Below are positions 4,447 through 53,310 of a DNA stretch of 59,237 nt, piece after piece (the stretch's first letter is position 1; each line of letters starts with the position of its first letter). The notes under the pieces were generated by a model. That model made no database searches. It saw only the letters and a list, made by a program, of their open reading frames with translations, and was not told the origin of the DNA. The position numbers and the translations under genes are program-made. This stretch comes from Candidatus Magnetomicrobium cryptolimnococcus (GTDB taxonomy: Bacteria; Nitrospirota; Thermodesulfovibrionia; Thermodesulfovibrionales; Magnetobacteriaceae): the NCBI GenBank assembly GCA_018606805.1, contig JAGYWI010000019.1:1-59237 (forward strand), read 5' to 3'.

Positions 4447-5226
4447 ATGTCCACAATAACAGAAAGAATATGTAATCTTGAAGAATTAGTAACAGATTTT
4501 ATAAAACAAACCAATAGTGCTATTCAGGAGCTTGTGAACTGTCATAAACAAAGAGAGATTGAATTGCAAAAGTTCAAGGACAATATTGAAGCTGAAAATA
4601 AAACATTTAAAAATAATGTGGAGGCTATACTTAGAAATTTTACTGAAAAGGCTGAAAATATACATCAACAAAACCCTATAAAACCTCAAAAACTTCCAGA
4701 GGTTCAAAAGCAAACAAGGCTTACATTGCAACAATCAGAAGAAGAAATAAAAGCCTACAAAGAGGAGTTGCGACTGGAAAATATAGAAACAAACCGTCAG
4801 TTGTGGAAAGCCTCCGATAAACTTGGTGATGTAATTGAAGACATTATATCTATATACATTTCATGGATTATTGAAAAAGAGTTTGGTGTGCAGTATGTAC
4901 TTATTAAGACGAGATTGCAAAGACAATTCGAGGTGTATGAAACTGAGTTTGATTTATGTGCCTTTGCCGCTGGTTATGTTTTCCTTAATAGTACAACAAA
5001 TATACTTAGAAACAGCAATGTGGATAGATTTATAAAAGACATAGAACTGTTCCGAATTATATATCCTGAGCATAAAGATAAACCACTTATTGGCATACTA
5101 GCTGCCTTGTACGTTAATGAAAGCGTGCTTATTTATGCAGAAAACAATGGCTTTATGGTACTTTCGGTTGGAGATAAAATATTGGAAGTTATAAACACTG
5201 AAGGGTTTAAACCAAAGGTTTGGTAA
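4447..5226 (+). CDS. Coiled-coil protein with nuclease-fold-like C-terminal domain (first copy)
   Basis: 259 residues. The first about 125 residues are charged heptad-like helix (ITERICNLEELVTDFIKQT and similar). The last about 130 form an alpha/beta domain resembling the DUF3782/PD-(D/E)XK group that often follows such coiled coils. The segment after EFDL, where active members carry an E-x-K motif, reads VFLNSTTN, so the catalytic pair appears absent. It is about 50-60% similar over the C-terminal half to the next gene, a tandem duplication. An AAGGGG ribosome binding site lies 11 nt before the ATG. It sits 50 nt after ntrX on the same strand and may be cotranscribed. Function unknown; a structural or DNA-binding role is as likely as a nuclease. 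Confidence 0.65.
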   Translation: MSTITERICNLEELVTDFIKQTNSAIQELVNCHKQREIELQKFKDNIEAENKTFKNNVEAILRNFTEKAENIHQQNPIKPQKLPEVQKQTRLTLQQSEEEIKAYKEELRLENIETNRQLWKASDKLGDVIEDIISIYISWIIEKEFGVQYVLIKTRLQRQFEVYETEFDLCAFAAGYVFLNSTTNILRNSNVDRFIKDIELFRIIYPEHKDKPLIGILAALYVNESVLIYAENNGFMVLSVGDKILEVINTEGFKPKVW

Positions 5227-5300
5227 CAATTACCACAATAAAATGTTTTTTTTTGTTAAAATACTATTAATTGTGAAGTGGGTAAATAAGGGGGAGGGTA

Positions 5301-6194
5301 ATGTCTATAATATTAGAAGAAAGGGTTTATAATCTTGAGCATATATTGGCAGATTTTATTAAAAACACTGAGGATATGCACCAAAAAACCCAAATGGAGA
5401 TTCAAAATCTTGTGCAGTTTCAAAAGCAAACAGAAGTTACTTTGAAGGAACTTGCAGAGGCTCAGAAGCAAACAAAGGCTGTTTTGGAGGAGCTTTCATC
5501 GTCTCATAGGGAGCTTTCAGCGTCTCATAGGGAGCTTTCATCGTCTCATAGGGAGCTTTTAGTGTCTCAGAAGCAAACAACGGCTGTTTTGGAGGAGCTT
5601 GCAGCGTCTCATAGGGAGCTTTTAGCGTCTCAGAAGCAAACAGAAGCTGCTTTGCAACGGTTTGAAAAAAAATTGGAAACTCACGAAAAGAAAATAGAAG
5701 CTCACGAAGAAAAAATGGAGGCTTACAGAGAAGAATCGCGGAAGGAAAACAAGGCAATCAACCTCAGTTGGGGAAAAATTACTAATAAGCTTGGCACTAT
5801 GGTTGAAGACATGGTACTTCCAAGCATTCCACGGATTATTAGAGACGAGTTTGGGATACAACGCATTAAGATTAAAACTAGATTACAAAAACAATTTGAC
5901 GTATATAATAAGGAATTTGACTTATGTGCCTTTGCCGATGATTGTGTTTTTATTAATAGCACAAAAAGTACGCTTAGAAAAAATACTGTAGATGATTTTA
6001 TAAATGACATAGATATGTTTAGGATAATATATCCTGAGTATAAAGATAAAGCGATTATTGGCATAATAGCTGCCCTGTATACCAGTAAAACCCTTGTTGA
6101 ATATGCTGAGGAAAAGGGCTTTATGGTACTTTCTGTTGGAAGCAATATCTTAGAGGTTATAAACACTAAAGGATTTAAGCCAAAGGTTTGGTAG
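5301..6194 (+). CDS. Coiled-coil protein with nuclease-fold-like C-terminal domain (second copy, repeat-expanded)
   Basis: 297 residues, paralogue of the gene just upstream. Residues about 1-155 are a long coiled coil with perfect heptads of the type [SA]-[SA]-S-H-R-E-L, encoded by 21-bp DNA repeats, and larger QKQTxAVLEELAASHREL units. The C-terminal domain (about 160-297) aligns throughout with the neighbour, including KTRLQ[KR]QF, EFDLCAFA and the shared end EVINT[EK]GFKPKVW. As in the neighbour, the position of the catalytic E-x-K reads FINSTKS, suggesting the same loss of activity before or soon after duplication. A strong GGGGAGG ribosome binding site precedes the ATG. Multimerisation through the coiled coil is likely. 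Role unknown. Confidence 0.65.
   Translation: MSIILEERVYNLEHILADFIKNTEDMHQKTQMEIQNLVQFQKQTEVTLKELAEAQKQTKAVLEELSSSHRELSASHRELSSSHRELLVSQKQTTAVLEELAASHRELLASQKQTEAALQRFEKKLETHEKKIEAHEEKMEAYREESRKENKAINLSWGKITNKLGTMVEDMVLPSIPRIIRDEFGIQRIKIKTRLQKQFDVYNKEFDLCAFADDCVFINSTKSTLRKNTVDDFINDIDMFRIIYPEYKDKAIIGIIAALYTSKTLVEYAEEKGFMVLSVGSNILEVINTKGFKPKVW
5458..5655 (+). repeat. In-frame 21-bp and longer tandem repeats in a coiled-coil gene
   Basis: Three near-perfect 21-bp units around TCTCATAGGGAGCTTT (about 5500-5562) sit inside a longer duplicated unit that starts with TCTCAGAAGCAAACA (three copies, about 5460, 5565 and 5628). All units are multiples of three, so the reading frame is kept and only coiled-coil length changes. 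Confidence 0.85.
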
Positions 6195-6344
6195 GAAGTG
6201 TTATTAGAAAAGGATGGTTGTCCTACCAGGTGTTGGTATTAAGTACCTGAGCATAATTATTCTCATACTGTACCAAAATAAAAATGGTTTGCAAAAAATA
6301 ATAGCTGTATTTTTTGTTATACCTCATGAAAATAGTGTTTTTGG

Positions 6345-6460
6345 GGTTCAAGGTTGTGTAGGCACACTTTACGGGAGTGCGCCCCCGCACCTGCCTGTGC
6401 GCATACACATCTTTGGCGGGAGTATGAGGGCAGCGCCCTCATTCTGTATTTGTTTCCTTT
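6345..6460. repeat. Intergenic palindromic repeat block
   Basis: Contains GTGTAGGCACACTTTACGGGAGTGCGCC, a TGTGCGCATACACA imperfect palindrome, CTTTGGCGGGAG and GAGGGCAGCGCCCTC (palindrome near 6426-6440). Read on the minus strand it is the same scaffold as 13404-13450 and 36581-36625: a GAGGGC...GCCCTC palindrome, then CTCCCGCCAA, then a copy-specific palindrome. It lies between the converging coiled-coil and cobA/hemD genes and may terminate both. Confidence 0.65.
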
Positions 6461-13360: not shown

Positions 13361-13399
13361 TCTGCTCTTTTTGTCTTTAGCTAAAAAGAAAAAGACTAA

Positions 13400-13455
13400 A
13401 GAATGAGGGCGCTGCCCTCAAACTCCCGCCAAAGGGACGCGTCCCTTTGGAATCC
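13400..13455. repeat. Palindrome repeat with perfect 22-bp palindrome
   Basis: GAATGAGGGCGCTGCCCTCA, then ACTCCCGCCAA, then a perfect 22-bp palindrome at 13429-13450 (CCAAAGGGACG plus its reverse complement). The first two parts recur at 6410-6445 (minus sense) and 36581-36607, but the palindrome that follows is different in each place. Confidence 0.7.
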
Positions 13456-13519
13456 CCTATCTGGACATCCATACTTTACTCATTATTTTTTTGCAAACCT
13501 AATTTATTTGAGTATATAA

Positions 13520-30817: not shown

Positions 30818-30925
30818 TACCAAAAGTTTTAGGAAGTGCATAGGCGCACTCCCGTAATGGGTGGGGAGGAGATAACAGGGGAGTGCGCCTACGCACCTTT
30901 TGCCTAAAAGGGTTTCCGCCCGCTC
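30818..30925. repeat. Repeat block with 18-bp stem, conserved loop
   Basis: CAAAAGTTTTAGGAAGTGC precedes an 18-bp stem with one mismatch: GTGCATAGGCGCACTCCC at 30836-30853 and GGGAGTGCGCCTACGCAC at 30879-30896. The loop has GTAATGGGTGGGG and GATAACAGG, as in 174-237. It ends in CCTAAAAGGGTTTCCGCCCGCTCC. It lies between the broken receiver and rnhA. Confidence 0.75.
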
Positions 30926-30982: not shown

Positions 30983-31480
30983 ATGTACACATTACCAGAA
31001 GTAGCAATATATTCGGATGGGGCTTGTTTTAAAAATCCAGGTCCTGGTGGCTATGGAGTTGTCCTTATATCAGACAAGGGCAAACGTAAGGAGCTATCGG
31101 GGGGATTTCGCCATACAACAAATAACAGAATGGAAATACTTTCTGCAATTATGGGGCTACGGACTCTTAAAGTTAAGTGTAGGGTTACAGTATACACGGA
31201 TTCACGGCTTTTGGTTGATTCTATAATGAAGGGTTGGGCTAAGCGGTGGCGAAAAAATAACTGGATGCGCAATAAGGATGAAAAGGCTCTTAATGCTGAC
31301 TTATGGGAAGAGATGCTTACCCTTATAGACAAACATGAAGTTACATTTAAATGGATAAAAGGGCATGCTGGTCATGTTGAAAATGAGCACTGTGATAAAC
31401 TATCAAAAGAAGCAGCGAGAGGAAAAAAATTACCGATAGACACTGGATATGAAAATGGAAATAATCACATGCCACACTAA
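30983..31480 (+). CDS. rnhA: Ribonuclease HI
   Basis: 165 residues. Cleaves the RNA strand of RNA-DNA hybrids. The four acidic catalytic positions are visible: AIYSDGACFKNPGPGGYG, NNRMEILSAIMGL, VYTDSRLLVDS, and the late D in ENEHCDKLSKEAARG preceded by WIKGHAGH. Normal RNase HI length (about 150) plus a short tail. Its last 32 nt overlap the start of the DHH/CCA gene, suggesting coupled translation. Confidence 0.95.
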   Translation: MYTLPEVAIYSDGACFKNPGPGGYGVVLISDKGKRKELSGGFRHTTNNRMEILSAIMGLRTLKVKCRVTVYTDSRLLVDSIMKGWAKRWRKNNWMRNKDEKALNADLWEEMLTLIDKHEVTFKWIKGHAGHVENEHCDKLSKEAARGKKLPIDTGYENGNNHMPH

Positions 31481-34100
31481 TGCAGACTTTGATTGCCTAT
31501 CGTCAATGGTGGGGATTTCTAAGATATTTAAAACAGCCAAGCTAGTTTTCCCGGGCTCTCAGGAAAAACAGGTGAGGGATTTTTTACGTGCCTTTCCGAT
31601 GGACATTGTTAAGCTAAAAGACATTGAGCTTTTAGATATAACGAAGCTTATTGTAGTGGACACAAATGATCCACAGCGTATAGGAATTTTTAAAGATATA
31701 GTCAATAACCGCAGCGTACAAGTGTTCGTCTATGACCATCACCCAAAGAGTAAAAATGGCATAAAGGCAGCGGTGGAGGTTATTGACGAAGTTGGCGCTG
31801 CTACTACACTAATTGTGGAGCTAATACGGGAAAGGAATATAAGTCTAACACCATTTGAAGCAACTCTTCTTTGTATTGGCATATATGAAGAAACTGGTTC
31901 TATGAAATTTCCGACAACAACGGAGAGGGATTTAGTTGCAGCCTCTTACCTATTAAGAAAAGGGGCTGATCTCAATGTTGTTTCCACATACATACAGCCG
32001 GAGTTAAGCAAAGAGGGGTTAGCGCTTTTAAATGACTTAGTGTCGTCTCTAACTGAGGTATTCATACATAGTGTTTGGATAAAGATTGCTATGGTGTACA
32101 GGGAAAAGTTTAATGGCGAGATAGCTTACTTTGCCCACTACATTATGGACATGGAGGACATTGATGCACTTGTGCTTATATTAAATATAGGTGGTAAGGT
32201 ATTTCTTGTAGGCAGGAGTCGGACATCATCGCTAAATATAGCTAAGCTAATGGAGAGATTTACTGGAGGTGGACACGAAAAGGCAGCAGCAGCTTCAATA
32301 AAGGAAATGCCTCTTGACATTGTTAAAGAAAATGTTATTAAAGCCTTACAGGAGCTAATCCAGCCTATACGCACAGCCAAGGACATAATGACAAGTCCGG
32401 TTATCACGATTGCGTGGGACAATAGTATTAAAGAGGCTGAAAAACTACTCACTAAATATGAAATAAATGTGTTACCTGTCATTAAAAATAATGAGTATAT
32501 GGGGTTGATTTCCCGAGAAATAGTGGAAAAGGCACTGTTTCATGGCTTTAAATTAAACAAGGTTATGGAATTTACAACAACAGACGCCTATACAGCCTTG
32601 TGGGACACACCGATACGGACAATAGAAAAGGACATGATAGAAAATAATCAGCGTTTTGTCGCAATTATTGACAATAAAATGCCCATTGGTGCAATCACAC
32701 GGACAGACCTTCTAAGAAACCTTTATGAAGACTATATTAAAAAAAGCAGACTAGACATACCAACAGCCTATAAACAAAGCCATGACAGAAACATTGGCGC
32801 ACTGCTTAGGGAGCGCCTACCGGCTTATGCGCTAAATCTGCTTATAACAGCAGGGGCGGCTGCCGATGAACTATCCATGCAGGCTTACTTAGTGGGGGGC
32901 TCCGTTAGGGATATACTAAGAGGGCAGCTCACATTAGATATTGACATTGTAGTAGAAGGCGACGGGATAAAGCTTGCGAAATACTTAAGCAATATCTTAG
33001 GCGGTAAGATGAAGACCCACGAACGATTTCAAACAGCAAAGATTATGGATATTCCAATACCGGGGAATAATCACAATAAAACCATGCACATTGATGTCGC
33101 AACGGCAAGAACTGAGTACTACGAAAGGCCGGCAGAGCTGCCAAGGGTTGAAACATCTTCTATAAAGAAAGACCTTTACAGACGGGATTTCACAATAAAT
33201 GCCTTAGCTGCCAAACTAAACAAAAACGGTTTTGGCCATCTTATAGATTTTTTTGGTGGCCAGCGAGATTTAAAAGATGGCATTATCCGTGTTATGCACA
33301 ATTTAAGTTTTATAGAGGACCCGACGAGGGCTTTTCGAGCTGTACGCTTTGGTGAGCGTTTTTCATTTAAGCTAAGTAAGCACACAGAAAACCTTATAAT
33401 ATCAGCACTTAAATTAGACCTATTTGATAAGCTCTCAGGAGCTAGATTATTCGATGAACTAACACTCATATTTTATGAGCATGAGCCGGAAAAAATCATA
33501 AAAAGACTCTCACGCTATGGCCTTTTATCAGTAATTCACCCTAAACTCAGTTACTCGCCAAGACTTGACTGGTTAATGAAAAACGTACGGGACACCCTTT
33601 CTTGGTATAATTTGCTCTTTCTTGGAAAAACTATTAAAAAAGAAAATGTTTATTTAATGGCGTTACTTGATTTTTTGAATGAAAACGACAGGGCAAGTGC
33701 CCTTGACAGGCTATTGGTACCTGAGAGTTTTAAATTTGAGATAATGTCAAACACATTACATGCAAGGCAGGCAAATAATACTTTAGAGTACTCGAAAAAC
33801 GATGCAGCCATTATCTATAAAACCTTGAGGGGCATTAAAATAGAGGCACTTTTATTTCTTATGTCTATTTGTAACGACGAAGATAAGAAAAAGCCCATAT
33901 CAAAATACCTGATAGAGCATAGAAACATTAAACCAATGCTTACCGGTAAAGAGCTTATTGCTATGGGCATTAAGCCGGGACCTATATATTCACAAATCTT
34001 TGAAAACATACTCTACGAGAAACTACGCGGCAATATCAACACCAAAAGCGACGAAATAGAGTACGTTAAAACCCACTACTCAGCCTTATTATTAATATAG
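31449..34100 (+). CDS. DHH-CBS-CCA tRNA nucleotidyltransferase (A-adding/polynucleotide adenylyltransferase type)
   Basis: 883 residues, start 31449 or the Met two codons later. N-terminal DHH/DHHA1 phosphoesterase (TCHTNADFDCLSSM, VVDTND, VYDHHPKS, FTGGGHEKAAAAS), then two CBS repeats (about 310-430, KDIMTSPVITIAW), then a class II nucleotidyltransferase from about 470 (YLVGGSVRDILRGQ, TLDIDIVVEGDG, RRDFTINALA) and PolyA_pol RNA-binding helices. Such three-part proteins occur in deep-branching bacteria and extend or repair tRNA 3' CCA ends. Here all three parts look intact. The 3' end overlaps the convergent yidC by 25 nt, and the start lies within rnhA. Confidence 0.9.
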   Translation: MKMEIITCHTNADFDCLSSMVGISKIFKTAKLVFPGSQEKQVRDFLRAFPMDIVKLKDIELLDITKLIVVDTNDPQRIGIFKDIVNNRSVQVFVYDHHPKSKNGIKAAVEVIDEVGAATTLIVELIRERNISLTPFEATLLCIGIYEETGSMKFPTTTERDLVAASYLLRKGADLNVVSTYIQPELSKEGLALLNDLVSSLTEVFIHSVWIKIAMVYREKFNGEIAYFAHYIMDMEDIDALVLILNIGGKVFLVGRSRTSSLNIAKLMERFTGGGHEKAAAASIKEMPLDIVKENVIKALQELIQPIRTAKDIMTSPVITIAWDNSIKEAEKLLTKYEINVLPVIKNNEYMGLISREIVEKALFHGFKLNKVMEFTTTDAYTALWDTPIRTIEKDMIENNQRFVAIIDNKMPIGAITRTDLLRNLYEDYIKKSRLDIPTAYKQSHDRNIGALLRERLPAYALNLLITAGAAADELSMQAYLVGGSVRDILRGQLTLDIDIVVEGDGIKLAKYLSNILGGKMKTHERFQTAKIMDIPIPGNNHNKTMHIDVATARTEYYERPAELPRVETSSIKKDLYRRDFTINALAAKLNKNGFGHLIDFFGGQRDLKDGIIRVMHNLSFIEDPTRAFRAVRFGERFSFKLSKHTENLIISALKLDLFDKLSGARLFDELTLIFYEHEPEKIIKRLSRYGLLSVIHPKLSYSPRLDWLMKNVRDTLSWYNLLFLGKTIKKENVYLMALLDFLNENDRASALDRLLVPESFKFEIMSNTLHARQANNTLEYSKNDAAIIYKTLRGIKIEALLFLMSICNDEDKKKPISKYLIEHRNIKPMLTGKELIAMGIKPGPIYSQIFENILYEKLRGNINTKSDEIEYVKTHYSALLLI

Positions 34101-36483: not shown

Positions 36484-36569
36484 GTAAAAAAAGAAAAAAA
36501 TACAGGGCAAGCTCATCTATACCCAAACAAATTAGGTTTGCAAGGCATTATTAAAAATAATAAGGAAAC

Positions 36570-36655
36570 AAATACACAGTGAGGGCGCTGCCCTCACTCT
36601 CGCCAACGGTGCGGAGGCGCACCAGGGGGTGATAGTCTCTGCGTGGCTTCAAAGT
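36570..36655. repeat. Palindrome repeat block beside hairpin element
   Basis: GTGAGGGCGCTGCCCTCACT (36579-36598 region), CTCTCGCCAA, then GGTGCGGAGGCGCACC, a copy-specific palindrome. Same scaffold as 13400-13450 and 6410-6445. Confidence 0.65.
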
Positions 36656-43881: not shown

Positions 43882-46764
43882 TCACAGTTTAGAAGCTATT
43901 TTTTCTATCTTATAATTTTCTAAAATATCTCCAATTTTAATATCATTGTAATTTTCCAGCATAATGCCACACTCATAACCGGTATTAACTTCTTTAACGT
44001 CATCTTTTACCCTTTTAAGAGAGTTAATCTTGCCATCATGTACAACAATATTATCCCGAATAACTCTAATGCCTTCACTTGCCCTTTGAATTACGCCATC
44101 TGTTACCATGCAGCCTGCAATAGTACCAAGACGTGATATAACAAAAAGCTGTCTCACTTCGGCAGTACCAAGGATAGTTTCTTTTATGGTAGGCTCAAGC
44201 ATACCCTCAAGGGCTTTCTTTATATCGTCAATGGCGTCATATATGACGTTATAGAATCTAACATCAACGCCTTCTCGTTCAGCCAGTCGTTGGGCTTTAA
44301 CATCGGCTCTTACGTTAAAACCGAGTATTATGGCATTAGAAGCAGACGCTAGCATAACGTCCGACTCGTTAATCCCACCGATGGCAGTATGTATAACTCT
44401 AACCTTTACCTCTTCGTGTTTAATGCCATCCATAGAACCCTTAACAGCCTCAACTGAGCCTTGAACGTCTCCCTTAACAATTATATTAAGTTCCTTGATT
44501 TCCTGTTCCTTTATCTTTGCATAGACGTCATCAAGGTTAAGTTTTCTACCAACAACGGCCTTTGAAGCAGTAACCTTAGAAAGCCTAGTTATGGCGATTT
44601 GCCGTGCCCTTTTTTCATCATCAACGACGGTTAATAGTTCACCGGCATTTGGTACGTCCGAAAAACCGAGTACTTCAACAGGAGTTGCAGGTCCGGCAGA
44701 TATAATTTTATTGCCATCATCATCACTAAGGGCACGCACGCGTCCGTAGTTAAGGCCAGCTATAAACACATCGCCAATATTGAGTGTTCCGTTTTGTATA
44801 AGCACGGTAGCAATAGCGCCGCGGTTTTTATCCATCTTGGATTCGATAATAATTCCACGAGCGGCCGTATCCGGGTTGGCCCTAAGGTCCATAAGTTCTG
44901 CTTGCAGGATAATCATTTCAAGGAGTTCTTCTATGCCAATACGTTTTTTAGCAGAAACTTCTACAAAGATATTCTTACCGCCCCAGTCCTCTGGCACTAC
45001 CCCGTGTTCTGCCAGCTCATTTTTAACTCGTGCAACGTCAGCACCGCTTTTATCTATTTTATTAATGGCTACAACTATAGCAACATTTGCCGCCATAGCA
45101 TGGCTAATAGCCTCAAGTGTTTGGGGCATCACGCCATCATCAGCAGCTATTACAAGCACAACTATATCTGTAACCTTAGCTCCTCTAGCCCTCATGGATG
45201 TAAACGCTTCATGGCCGGGTGTATCAAGGAAGACTATTTCTTTACCTTTTAATTTAATTTTATATGCACCAATATGTTGTGTAATGCCACCAGCCTCTTT
45301 TTCCTGCACCTTTGTAGAACGTATAGCATCTAACAATGATGTTTTACCGTGGTCAACGTGTCCCATTATTGTAATAACAGGAGGTCTTGACTTTAAGTGT
45401 CCTTCAACAACATCGGCTTCCTCAACCTCAAAATCCTCAACGGTAGCCAGCTCTATCTTAGTACCAAAACTATCAGCCACCAGTATAGCGGCATCCATAT
45501 CAACCGGCTGGTTAATGGAAACCATAGAGCCAAGCTCCATAAATTTTTTAATAACCTCCGGTAGTTTCTGTCCGATAGTTTTAGCAAACTCATTAACGGT
45601 AGTACCTTCTTGCACCTTGATAACCTTTCGTCTAGGCGCAGTTGGCAAAATAACTTTAGTTGCAACAGTCGGGGATCCCTTTTGTTGCATCTTATTTTTA
45701 GTGGATTTTTTAGTATAGCGCGTATCAAAGACCTTTTTAGGTTCCACCTTTCTTATAGACTGAAATGCTCGCTGCATACCAAGTTTGGGTTTCAGCTTGT
45801 CCACTTTATCAATTTCCACTTTTCGTTTAAAGCGGTCTAATATGGCAATGTCCTCATCAGCATAAGTGGGGATTTCCTTCGGTGTTGTTTCAACTAAGGC
45901 AACAGAGGGAAGTGGCCGTACGGGTCGCTCCTTATGGGCGGTGTGTGGTCTTTGCTGTGCTGTCTGTGGCTGTTGGGCTACCCTTTTTCTTGAATCGTCT
46001 TTGTTATATGACGGTTGTTCACGCCGTGCGGTACTATTGTGTTGGTCACGCGAAACCGGCCTGTGCTGGTCTTTTTGGTATGGATGGTCTCTGTGCGGCG
46101 GTCTTTGTCCTTTATTGTTTGAAGTGTAATGGTCTCTCTGTGGCCGATTTTGTTGAGTACCTTGTGGTCGATTTTGTTGAGTACCTTGCGGTCGGTTTTG
46201 CAAGTTACCTTGTGGTCGGTTTTGTTGAGTACCTTGCGGCCGGTTTTGCGGGTTATATTGTGGCCGATTTTGAGAGTTATTTTGAGAGTTATATTGTGGT
46301 CGGTTTTGTTGAGTACCTTGCGGCCGATTTTGAGAGTTATATTGTGGTCGGTTTTGAGAGTTATATTGCGGCCGGTTTTGAGAGTTATATTGCGGTCGGT
46401 TTTGCGGAGTATATTGTTGTTTTTTAGAATCTTGATTATCCCTTGGTTGATACTGCTGTTGTCCTTTATAACCGTGCTGTGTTTTACCATCAGAGGGTCT
46501 GTCTTTATTATCAAAACTGCTGGCCGGAGTTGTAACCTGTGCCTTTTCCTGCACATTGTCAGGGGTATCCCTAACAACATCCACTTTTTTAATAGTTTTT
46601 TTCTTTTCAGAAAGAAAGGTCTCCACCTTAGACGCTAAATCAGGTGATAGCCCTGAGGCAGGTCTCTTTCCCTCTATACCCATATCATGAAGTGCATCCA
46701 GTATAGATTTACTGGAAATATTCAACTTCTTAGCAAACTCATATATCCTTATTTCCGCCATCAA
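43882..46764 (-). CDS. infB: Translation initiation factor IF-2
   Basis: 960 residues. N-terminal IF2_N (about 1-52). A disordered linker (about 60-310) has 11 NRPQxxxQ octapeptides at about 122-213, followed by basic stretches. A second IF2_N-like part spans about 385-455. The GTPase begins at GHVDHGKTSLL (about 466) with DTPGHEAF and NKIDK, followed by the beta-barrels and the fMet-tRNA-binding C-terminal domain. Delivers initiator tRNA to the 30S. Linker length is variable in the family, but this Q/N/P octapeptide array is uncommon. Overlaps ylxR by 4 nt. Confidence 0.96.
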   Translation of the reverse strand: MMAEIRIYEFAKKLNISSKSILDALHDMGIEGKRPASGLSPDLASKVETFLSEKKKTIKKVDVVRDTPDNVQEKAQVTTPASSFDNKDRPSDGKTQHGYKGQQQYQPRDNQDSKKQQYTPQNRPQYNSQNRPQYNSQNRPQYNSQNRPQGTQQNRPQYNSQNNSQNRPQYNPQNRPQGTQQNRPQGNLQNRPQGTQQNRPQGTQQNRPQRDHYTSNNKGQRPPHRDHPYQKDQHRPVSRDQHNSTARREQPSYNKDDSRKRVAQQPQTAQQRPHTAHKERPVRPLPSVALVETTPKEIPTYADEDIAILDRFKRKVEIDKVDKLKPKLGMQRAFQSIRKVEPKKVFDTRYTKKSTKNKMQQKGSPTVATKVILPTAPRRKVIKVQEGTTVNEFAKTIGQKLPEVIKKFMELGSMVSINQPVDMDAAILVADSFGTKIELATVEDFEVEEADVVEGHLKSRPPVITIMGHVDHGKTSLLDAIRSTKVQEKEAGGITQHIGAYKIKLKGKEIVFLDTPGHEAFTSMRARGAKVTDIVVLVIAADDGVMPQTLEAISHAMAANVAIVVAINKIDKSGADVARVKNELAEHGVVPEDWGGKNIFVEVSAKKRIGIEELLEMIILQAELMDLRANPDTAARGIIIESKMDKNRGAIATVLIQNGTLNIGDVFIAGLNYGRVRALSDDDGNKIISAGPATPVEVLGFSDVPNAGELLTVVDDEKRARQIAITRLSKVTASKAVVGRKLNLDDVYAKIKEQEIKELNIIVKGDVQGSVEAVKGSMDGIKHEEVKVRVIHTAIGGINESDVMLASASNAIILGFNVRADVKAQRLAEREGVDVRFYNVIYDAIDDIKKALEGMLEPTIKETILGTAEVRQLFVISRLGTIAGCMVTDGVIQRASEGIRVIRDNIVVHDGKINSLKRVKDDVKEVNTGYECGIMLENYNDIKIGDILENYKIEKIASKL
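46126..46401 (-). repeat. In-frame 24-bp repeat array in infB
   Basis: Eleven units, mostly 24 bp, encoding NRPQ plus YNSQ, GTQQ, YNPQ or GNLQ. Nearly identical at the DNA level, which suggests recent expansion. One unit is extended by 12 bp (NNSQ). Confidence 0.85.
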
Positions 46765-52362: not shown

Positions 52363-53214
52363 ATGGAAATAATTACCCAACCGCCTCTAATGCAAAGGCG
52401 TACAAGCGCACTTAATAGAAGAGGCATAGGCTTTGTCCCAACCATGGGGGCACTCCATGATGGCCACTTGAGTCTTATCAAAAAAGCCAGAGACGAAAAC
52501 CAACTGGTAGTTGTGAGCATATTCGTAAACCCAACACAATTTGCCCAAGGTGAGGATTTCGATAAATACCCAAAAGACTGCGAAAAAGATAAAGAGCTAC
52601 TGGAAGCAAACCAAGTGGATATATTATTTATGCCTGAAGCTGCTCAAATATATAAACCAGGACACAACACAGTTGTTACCGTTACAGGGCTGTCAGATAA
52701 ACTGTGCGGCTTTTATAGGCCTGGACATTTTCAGGGGGTTGCAACCATAGTGCTGAAATTGTTAAACATAGTATGTCCCGAAAAGGCATACTTTGGCCAA
52801 AAAGACTATCAACAAGCGCTCATCATAAAACGCATGGTAGAAGATTTAAACTTAAATGTGGATATAGTTGTCTGCCCCACTGTACGTGAGACAGATGGTC
52901 TTGCACTCAGTTCAAGAAATAGGTATCTTTCAACAGAAGAAAGAAAAGACGCTAGCTTAATATATAAAGCTATGATAGCAGCTGAAAGGGAAAAAAACCT
53001 TGTAGATGTACCTAAGGTGTTAAGGCAAGTATTGAGTACAACAAAACATATAACGGAAATCCAATATGCCTCAGTATATGACCCATTAACTTTGGAGGAT
53101 ATAACGCATCTGTCTTATGAATATGAGGGGAAAGAGGTGTTAATGGCAGTAGCCGTTAAGCTTGGTCAAACAAGGCTTATAGATAATAAAAAAAGAATTA
53201 AAAATGAAAAATAA
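52363..53214 (+). CDS. panC: Pantothenate synthetase
   Basis: 283 residues. Joins pantoate and beta-alanine with ATP, for coenzyme A. FVPTMGALHDGHLSLIKKA, VVSIFVNPTQFAQGEDFDKYP, FGQKDYQQ, ALSSRNRYLS all intact. The last codons run into an AT-rich tandem repeat (53195 onward). Four nt after the M16 partner and without a clear ribosome binding site, so coupled to it. Confidence 0.96.
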   Translation: MEIITQPPLMQRRTSALNRRGIGFVPTMGALHDGHLSLIKKARDENQLVVVSIFVNPTQFAQGEDFDKYPKDCEKDKELLEANQVDILFMPEAAQIYKPGHNTVVTVTGLSDKLCGFYRPGHFQGVATIVLKLLNIVCPEKAYFGQKDYQQALIIKRMVEDLNLNVDIVVCPTVRETDGLALSSRNRYLSTEERKDASLIYKAMIAAEREKNLVDVPKVLRQVLSTTKHITEIQYASVYDPLTLEDITHLSYEYEGKEVLMAVAVKLGQTRLIDNKKRIKNEK

Positions 53215-53310
53215 AGAATAAAGAATAAAGAATAAAGAATAAAGAATGAAAAATAAAGAATAAAGAATGAAAAATAAAGAATAAAGAATGAAAAATAAAG
53301 AATAAAGATA
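53201..53310 (+). repeat. AT-rich tandem repeat at the panC stop
   Basis: 7-bp AATAAAG units and at least four 21-bp units (AATGAAAAATAAAGAATAAAG) begin at the last codons of panC and run about 100 nt past its stop. Looks like slippage expansion. Confidence 0.8.

Follow-up and report, generated by a model that had tools for sequence, protein, structure and literature searches.

MITEs, as characterized in PMC2229807, are small, AT-rich and strongly folding, with inverted ends and TA termini, and are dispersed between genes. REP superfamilies are defined by a GTAG or CGTC tag (PMC3733652); in the account given there, the GTAG and CGTC repeats are short hairpins that combine the constant tag with heterogeneous stems and loops, occur in several phyla and are often paired. 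BOX of Streptococcus pneumoniae is a modular repeat whose ends flank a varying number of internal modules in tandem (PMC3049150), and the CIR repeats of α-proteobacteria, as outlined in PMC2229807, are intergenic and consist of two inverted-repeat arms and a linker. In the study of PMC8794818, template switching corrects stems and occasionally inverts loops, leaving hairpins with simultaneous compensatory changes and inverted loops.

The repeat analysed here resembles these kinds in some of its parts. It is real: a MITE-like element with exchangeable hairpins and a two-hairpin core that is found in distant bacteria.

Copies in the window and build of the element

Within the window, the whole stretch of 59,237 nucleotides that was analysed, a pattern search located GAGGGCGCTGCCCTC on the plus strand at 13405-13419 and 36581-36595 and on the minus strand at 6426-6440, and nowhere else at up to three mismatches (0.37 expected by chance; 0 of 100 shuffles as high). 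Each site is adjoined by CTCYCGCCAA, at 13423, 36597 and, on the minus strand, 6413. The full spans of this constant scaffold are 6413-6440 (minus), 13405-13432 (plus) and 36581-36606 (plus), with a different hairpin beside each. The earlier note had described a constant scaffold at three sites of the window, which is borne out, its coordinates having been off by 1 to 4 bases.

The reported site is copy 2 (13385-13516, plus strand), which is truncated at its 5′ end and retains an intact right terminal repeat; its positions 13385-13434 align with 6411-6460 as an inverted pair. Pattern searches place its hairpin H1 (GAGGGC GCT GCCCTC) at 13405-13419 and the constant linker CTCCCGCCAA at 13423-13432, both on the plus strand. 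Hairpin H2, at 13429-13450 (plus strand, with the same coordinates on both strands), is indeed the perfect 22-bp palindrome that had been claimed, since CCAAAGGGACGCGTCCCTTTGG reads alike on both strands; its initial four bases, CCAA, double as the end of the 'constant' scaffold. An end-sequence search located the right terminal inverted repeat at 13491-13516, where the minus strand reads TATACTCAAATAAATTAGGTTTGCAA.

Copy 3 (36518-36629, plus strand, right limit approximate) has an intact left terminal inverted repeat, TATACCCAAACAAATTAGGTTTGCAA, at 36518-36543 (plus strand, end-sequence search), is without the right half and directly precedes the other repeat family of the window. Its scaffold, found by pattern search at 36581-36606 (plus strand), combines H1 and CTCTCGCCAA and has a shorter spacer, and a module search placed the hairpin GGTGCG GAGG CGCACC (GGTGCGGAGGCGCACC) at 36608-36623 (plus strand). 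Copy 1 (6269-6460, minus strand, limits approximate) carries the right-end repeat TGTACCAAAATAAAAATGGTTTGCAA at 6269-6294 and is truncated at the 5′ end; its positions 6420-6459 align with 36562-36601 of copy 3. Its scaffold GAGGGCGCTGCCCTCATACTCCCGCCAA (6413-6440, pattern search), a weak palindrome TGTGTATGCGCACA read from the sequence at 6396-6409 and a further hairpin module GTGCGGGGGCGCAC (6377-6390, module search) all lie on the minus strand. One terminal end is absent from each window copy, copies 1 and 2 keeping the right end and copy 3 the left. The palindromes following the scaffold had been said to differ, and CCAAAGGGACGCGTCCCTTTGG, GGTGCGGAGGCGCACC and TGTGTATGCGCACA do so, but TGTGTATGCGCACA counts as a weak hairpin because its perfect stem is only 4 bp.

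The genome of origin (3.585 Mb, 91 contigs) contains 79 sites of the GAGGGCGCTGCCCTC hairpin at up to one mismatch, one of which (C21:71394, locus L080) has, from its sequence, the look of a tRNA gene rather than of an element. The scaffold GAGGGCNNTGCCCTCNNNCTCYCGCCAA has 76 sites at up to three mismatches, and its reversed-pattern control has 0. Acceptance of copies by either element-like upstream sequence or the scaffold gave 91 copies (73 with both, 16 with the upstream sequence only and two with the scaffold only), of which 79 lie between ORFs, eight overlap a stop-to-stop ORF of 100 aa or longer and four lie at an edge. The neighbouring genes are tandem in 51 cases, divergent in 17 and convergent in 11, with 27 same and 24 opposite orientations.

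The scaffold forms the middle of a small dispersed element with inverted ends TATACC...GGTATA. Pairing of end sequences among the end matches listed and 32 extra stretches gave 33 pieces of 101-238 bp bounded by these ends, on which account we describe the element as MITE-like. The pieces follow the layout TATACC(C/A)AAACAAATTAGGTTTGCAA ... H1 ... modules ... TTGCAAACC...GGTATA; TA stands at both start and end in 30 of the 33, and the flanks are unrelated. Target duplication beyond TA was not detected, repeats of 3 or more being present in two of the 33 pieces against 1.87 in shuffles. Two nearly identical elements were seen at L042:1356-1591 and L044:1356-1591, and L044 has at its flanks a direct repeat of 10 nt, GCTTAACGGT, no other of the 33 pieces having a long one.

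Left halves come in two kinds, as do right halves, and halves have been exchanged between subtypes in L036 and L056. H1 is the only hairpin in L016 and L207, and a 101-bp version that keeps both inverted ends but lacks any GC-rich hairpin (L223:1272-1372) is perhaps the bare carrier. No end pairs longer than 238 bp and shorter than 2600 bp, such as a parent transposon might show, occurred among the end matches listed (100 of 149) and the 32 extra stretches, and a non-exhaustive search for a mobilizing enzyme found no transposase with matching ends.

Hairpin modules and adjacent structure

The linker CTCYCGCC is present in 74 of the 91 copies. In these, the longest perfect stem in the 45 nt past the linker averages 6.4 bp, compared with 4.2 in shuffles. 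Self-complementarity of the adjacent sequence above random, the check proposed in the earlier note, came out positive with exceptions: stem length differs from shuffles at p ≤ 0.05 in 40 of the 74 copies (p ≤ 0.01 in 14) and DNA folding energy at p ≤ 0.05 in 33 of the 74, compared with two of the 17 copies that lack the linker. Enrichment is thus real without being universal. Unstructured neighbours, which had been named as the finding that would count against the idea, do occur beside the scaffold in L011, L049, L070 and L074; the hairpin enrichment still holds, and these four look, from their sequences, like copies cut off just past the scaffold.

The palindromes of this genome amount to a small set of modules (GGGACNNGTCCC, GGTGYGNNGGCRCACC in either orientation and AAGGGGNNNNNCCCCTT), which are inserted, tandemly repeated or absent depending on the copy. 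The GGGACNNGTCCC hairpin directly follows CCAAA in 25 tabulated copies, 22 of them with perfect arms around six different central dinucleotides and three imperfect. Other copies have, between CCAAA and GGGAC, a 21-nt unit consisting of GGTGYGNNGGCRCACC plus TCCCT (L022 compared with L015); reversed, this unit precedes CTTGAACCCC, singly or in tandem (L082, L068, L088 and L018), with three tandem units in L082. At 283 sites in the genome (control 0), the unit is far more frequent than the scaffold with its 76. The module hairpin gave 15 matches in the window against 0.21 expected (0 of 100 shuffles), most of them in the other repeat family (109-235, 18266 and 30836-30896), and the two families therefore share modules. 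Of the common variable-palindrome logic postulated across families, what stands is the presence of the same hairpin module on both, which goes beyond a similarity of design. The design of a constant scaffold with a variable palindrome is real and extends to other bacteria, but the palindrome is not freely variable in this genome.

Several further features of the window were recorded. A 21-nt tandem array of AT-rich, AATAAAGA-type units (53204-53308) lies directly before a copy of the other hairpin repeat family, and nearly identical 111-bp tandem repeats run from 58652 to the contig end at 59237. The 24-nt repeats at 46099-46434 are inside the repetitive N-terminal part of a 960-aa minus-strand ORF (43882-46764) that matches translation initiation factor IF-2. 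Two adjoining ORFs at 4447-6194, neither with a Pfam match, have in common a 300-nt stretch at 76% and contain 21-nt repeats, and a single 883-aa ORF (31449-34100) combines DHH/DHHA1, CBS and poly(A) polymerase head domains.

Distribution and paired change of the arms

Among 60 genomes drawn as relatives, the genome of origin included, matches were found only in that genome and in G005, from another genus of the same family; among 198 genomes drawn from the phylum, a stricter pattern matched only the genome of origin. The exact scaffold was present in 68 stretches from 84,980 species genomes, where we estimate a chance expectation of a few hundredths (about 22.5 specified bases, 257 Gb). Assigned by accession prefix, these stretches belong to 24 assemblies: 19 carry Clostridia-type labels (Oscillospiraceae, Ruminococcus, Clostridia, Eubacteriales, Anaerotignum and similar names), the Alphaproteobacteria contribute three (two Hyphomicrobiaceae MAGs and Rhodovarius crocodyli strain CCP-6), and the remaining two are a Lentisphaerae MAG and a bacterium without further label. 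Contamination of MAGs is a possible source of single contigs. A phage or plasmid origin was considered and rejected: there was no phage match, one 29-nt match on a Gluconacetobacter plasmid and one exact match in viral contigs. Hairpins of this type may be common in α-proteobacteria.

The surroundings of the core differ genome by genome; the linkers and the two-hairpin layout recur in Clostridia, Alphaproteobacteria, the Lentisphaerae MAG and the genome of origin, and the palindrome between the linkers varies yet mostly pairs. A scaffold-anchored perfect stem of at least 5 bp is present in 59 of 70 scaffold copies elsewhere (shuffles: 8%), the 5′ arms being of 27 different kinds; of the 11 copies without such a stem, seven belong to a single family, CAMHJC, whose stem is interrupted. 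In a separate count of 71 copies, which keeps near-duplicates, the pair just outside H1, which the search pattern leaves free, is complementary in all 71 (TA 40, CG 30, AT 1), and the next pair out is complementary in 60, with four pair types and no G-T. G005 has 84 sites of a shorter unit of about 60 nt (H1, CTCCCGC, H2, GAACCCAT), some copies of which face an inverted partner. H2 in 32 of its copies reads GGGA/TCCC in 24 and GGGT/ACCC in six, one being unpaired and one without a match. Two-hairpin units facing in pairs inside ends like AAAGGCATCTACAT / ATGTAGATGCCTTT were also observed in G005 (L294 and L292).

Paired change is evident in the genome of origin. Among 102 distinct module copies sharing the stem GTGnGnnGGCnCAC, CG occupies the free position pair in 56, TA in 41 and TG in five, so that it is complementary in 97, compared with 52 expected under independence; the free pair of H3 (CAAGGGGnnnnnCCCCTTG) is CG in 16 and TA in four, complementary in 20 of 20. 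Imperfect module copies exist, for example GATGCG...CGCAC in ten. Inverted loops are rare here (H3 CTACG in four compared with CGTAG in one; H1 AGC in one of 50).

A clearer record comes from G220, a Ruminococcus-labelled MAG with 37 sites of a longer, five-hairpin element. Thirty of the 37 sites were retrieved, a shorter locus (L262) was left out of the alignment and two loci without hairpin H3 (L246 and L261) stand outside it; the decayed L264 is among the 27 aligned rows and was dropped from the count of 26 copies. Over the five hairpins of the 27 copies, 99.2% of 1444 cells are paired, and both sides have changed in 15 of 54 pairs. Double-changed cells number 76, one-sided cells ten and unpaired cells 11, with at most seven double changes in shifted-partner controls; cell counts are not independent events because the copies are related. 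Seven of the ten one-sided cells fall at the outermost pair of H5, leaving three in the 53 other pairs. H3 alone accounts for 53 double changes, 0 one-sided and four unpaired cells, and its lower stem shows 18 arm combinations among 26 copies, perfectly complementary in 24. The mean minority fraction is 0.045 in linkers and highest, 0.314, in loops. When one G220 locus was compared with 39 relatives in search of empty sites, the element was beside the matching gene in none, but synteny on the other side was lost.

Two further ideas were discarded. Random loop inversion as a general source of variation was rejected because inverted loops are rare and because the reverse complements of the G220 H4 loops do not turn up about as often as the loops themselves. 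A possible pairing of the H2 loop with the H4 loop in G220 was set aside, as the association fits descent.

Origin of the element and relation to known repeats

These observations lead us to propose that the site is probably a truncated copy of a non-autonomous dispersed element of MITE grade, modular and spread in trans, with its arms kept complementary by template switching and a constraint on the linkers. The element measures about 160-240 bp and has AT-rich inverted ends, TATACC...GGTTTGCAA and TTGCAAACC...GGTATA; inside them GC-rich hairpin modules form a chain, with the constant linkers CTCCCGCC, GGAATCCCG and TTGAACCCC between them. A transposase acting in trans on the ends would most likely have spread it into intergenic sites. 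Modules are gained, lost and tandemly repeated, as the copies attest, and both arms of a hairpin change together with one-sided states rare, as is seen in the genome of origin and better in G220. Template switching between the arms during replication would be the likely means by which a mutation of one arm is copied into the other, and the linker constraint may act beside it. Dispersal with inverted ends, a modular interior and paired change are properties of the copies themselves. The scarcity of one-sided states fits template switching, because pairing is restored in one step; loops can be inverted in the process as well (PMC8794818), and a few such loops do occur here, although their rarity weighs on the other side. 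The constant linkers imply some constraint that template switching leaves unexplained: on its own it does not account for them, nor for the constancy of most stems beside the variable H3 stem of G220.

Selection for pairing on both strands, as for instance in a two-way terminator, likewise fits the scarcity of one-sided states and the lack of G-T intermediates, and the data do not separate this from template switching. We nevertheless regard it as rather unlikely that the repeat is a structured RNA or bidirectional terminator whose hairpins are kept paired by selection at the transcript level. The strong covariation in G220 and the AAAA and TTTT around its H3, arranged as in a two-way intrinsic terminator, are what such a function would give, and a function on both strands would forbid G-U intermediates too; against this, H1, H2, H4 and H5 have no T-run, the neighbouring genes of the genome of origin show no convergent preference, and three one-sided cells in 53 G220 pairs would be unusual under one-strand RNA selection. 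Rfam at its gathering threshold returned 0 matches in the window and in nine loci, so that no known Rfam RNA family was recognized there. Movement as single-stranded hairpins by a Y1 (RAYT or TnpA-REP) transposase, the mode of REP elements, would suit the hairpin units, the dispersed intergenic copies and the inverted pairs of G005, a genome with five PF01797 matches. This origin is improbable, given that the genome of origin has only one sub-cutoff PF01797 (Y1) match and that six of 13 scaffold-bearing genomes searched have none (G216, G219, G221, G222, G223 and G228). Furthermore, none of 74 copies has GTAG or CGTC, on either strand, in the 8 nt preceding H1, tags appear in the linker once each (CGTC and CTAC), and a related piece accompanies only two of 30 Y1 loci scanned, both in G005 with its 84 sites (L188 and L197). 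Membership in the RAYT/REP group was rejected, both tags and transposase being missing.

A dedicated system that rewrites palindromes to generate diversity, which the earlier note implied, is very unlikely. The 18 arm combinations in 26 G220 copies on a constant scaffold and the 27 arms among the cross-genome copies would be in keeping with one, but the genome of origin draws on only a handful of modules, neither a companion enzyme nor a template was found and ordinary mutation plus arm copying suffices. GC-rich palindromes could also look alike through composition, their motifs being short and of low diversity; the pattern controls of 0, the 0 of 100 shuffles and conserved flanks of tens of bases make chance a negligible explanation.

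Returning to the modular element, a broader reading is conceivable, if doubtful: the two-hairpin module, with constant linkers CTCCCGCC before and GGAAnCCC after the second hairpin, might represent a superfamily of palindromic repeats spanning several phyla, the third after the GTAG and CGTC REPs, passed between bacteria and embedded in different local elements, with palindromes continually rewritten as complementary units by arm copying. If this were true, the repeats would constitute a readable record of template switching in wild genomes. Confirmation would establish a superfamily of dispersed palindromes that tag-based REP classification would miss, and would make testable the old question of whether perfect hairpins are kept by selection or by arm templating arm. 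A search of the open-licence literature found neither the scaffold sequences nor a description of the family, which does not prove their absence from print.

The component parts resemble known kinds, and the combination, together with the tag-free cross-phylum core, appears to be new. What separates the element from MITEs is that no target duplication beyond TA and, among the end pairs covered, no parent transposon were found, and that GC-rich hairpins which can be exchanged make up its interior as a chain. REPs differ in their tag, which is absent here, where the constant parts are the CTCCCGCC and GGAAnCCC linkers and each unit has at least two hairpins. The modules here are hairpins of 21 nt found on a second scaffold as well, which sets the element apart from BOX by description. 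GAATC after H2 in many copies recalls the CIR repeats; as these are described in PMC2229807, GANTC lies at the loop, whereas here it lies at the stem foot and the GGAACCC copies are without it, and a role involving GANTC methylation would be suggested by resemblance only. Finally, the simultaneous compensatory changes attributed to template switching in PMC8794818 concern, in the account given there, RNA genes, whereas those described here are carried by a dispersed multi-copy repeat.
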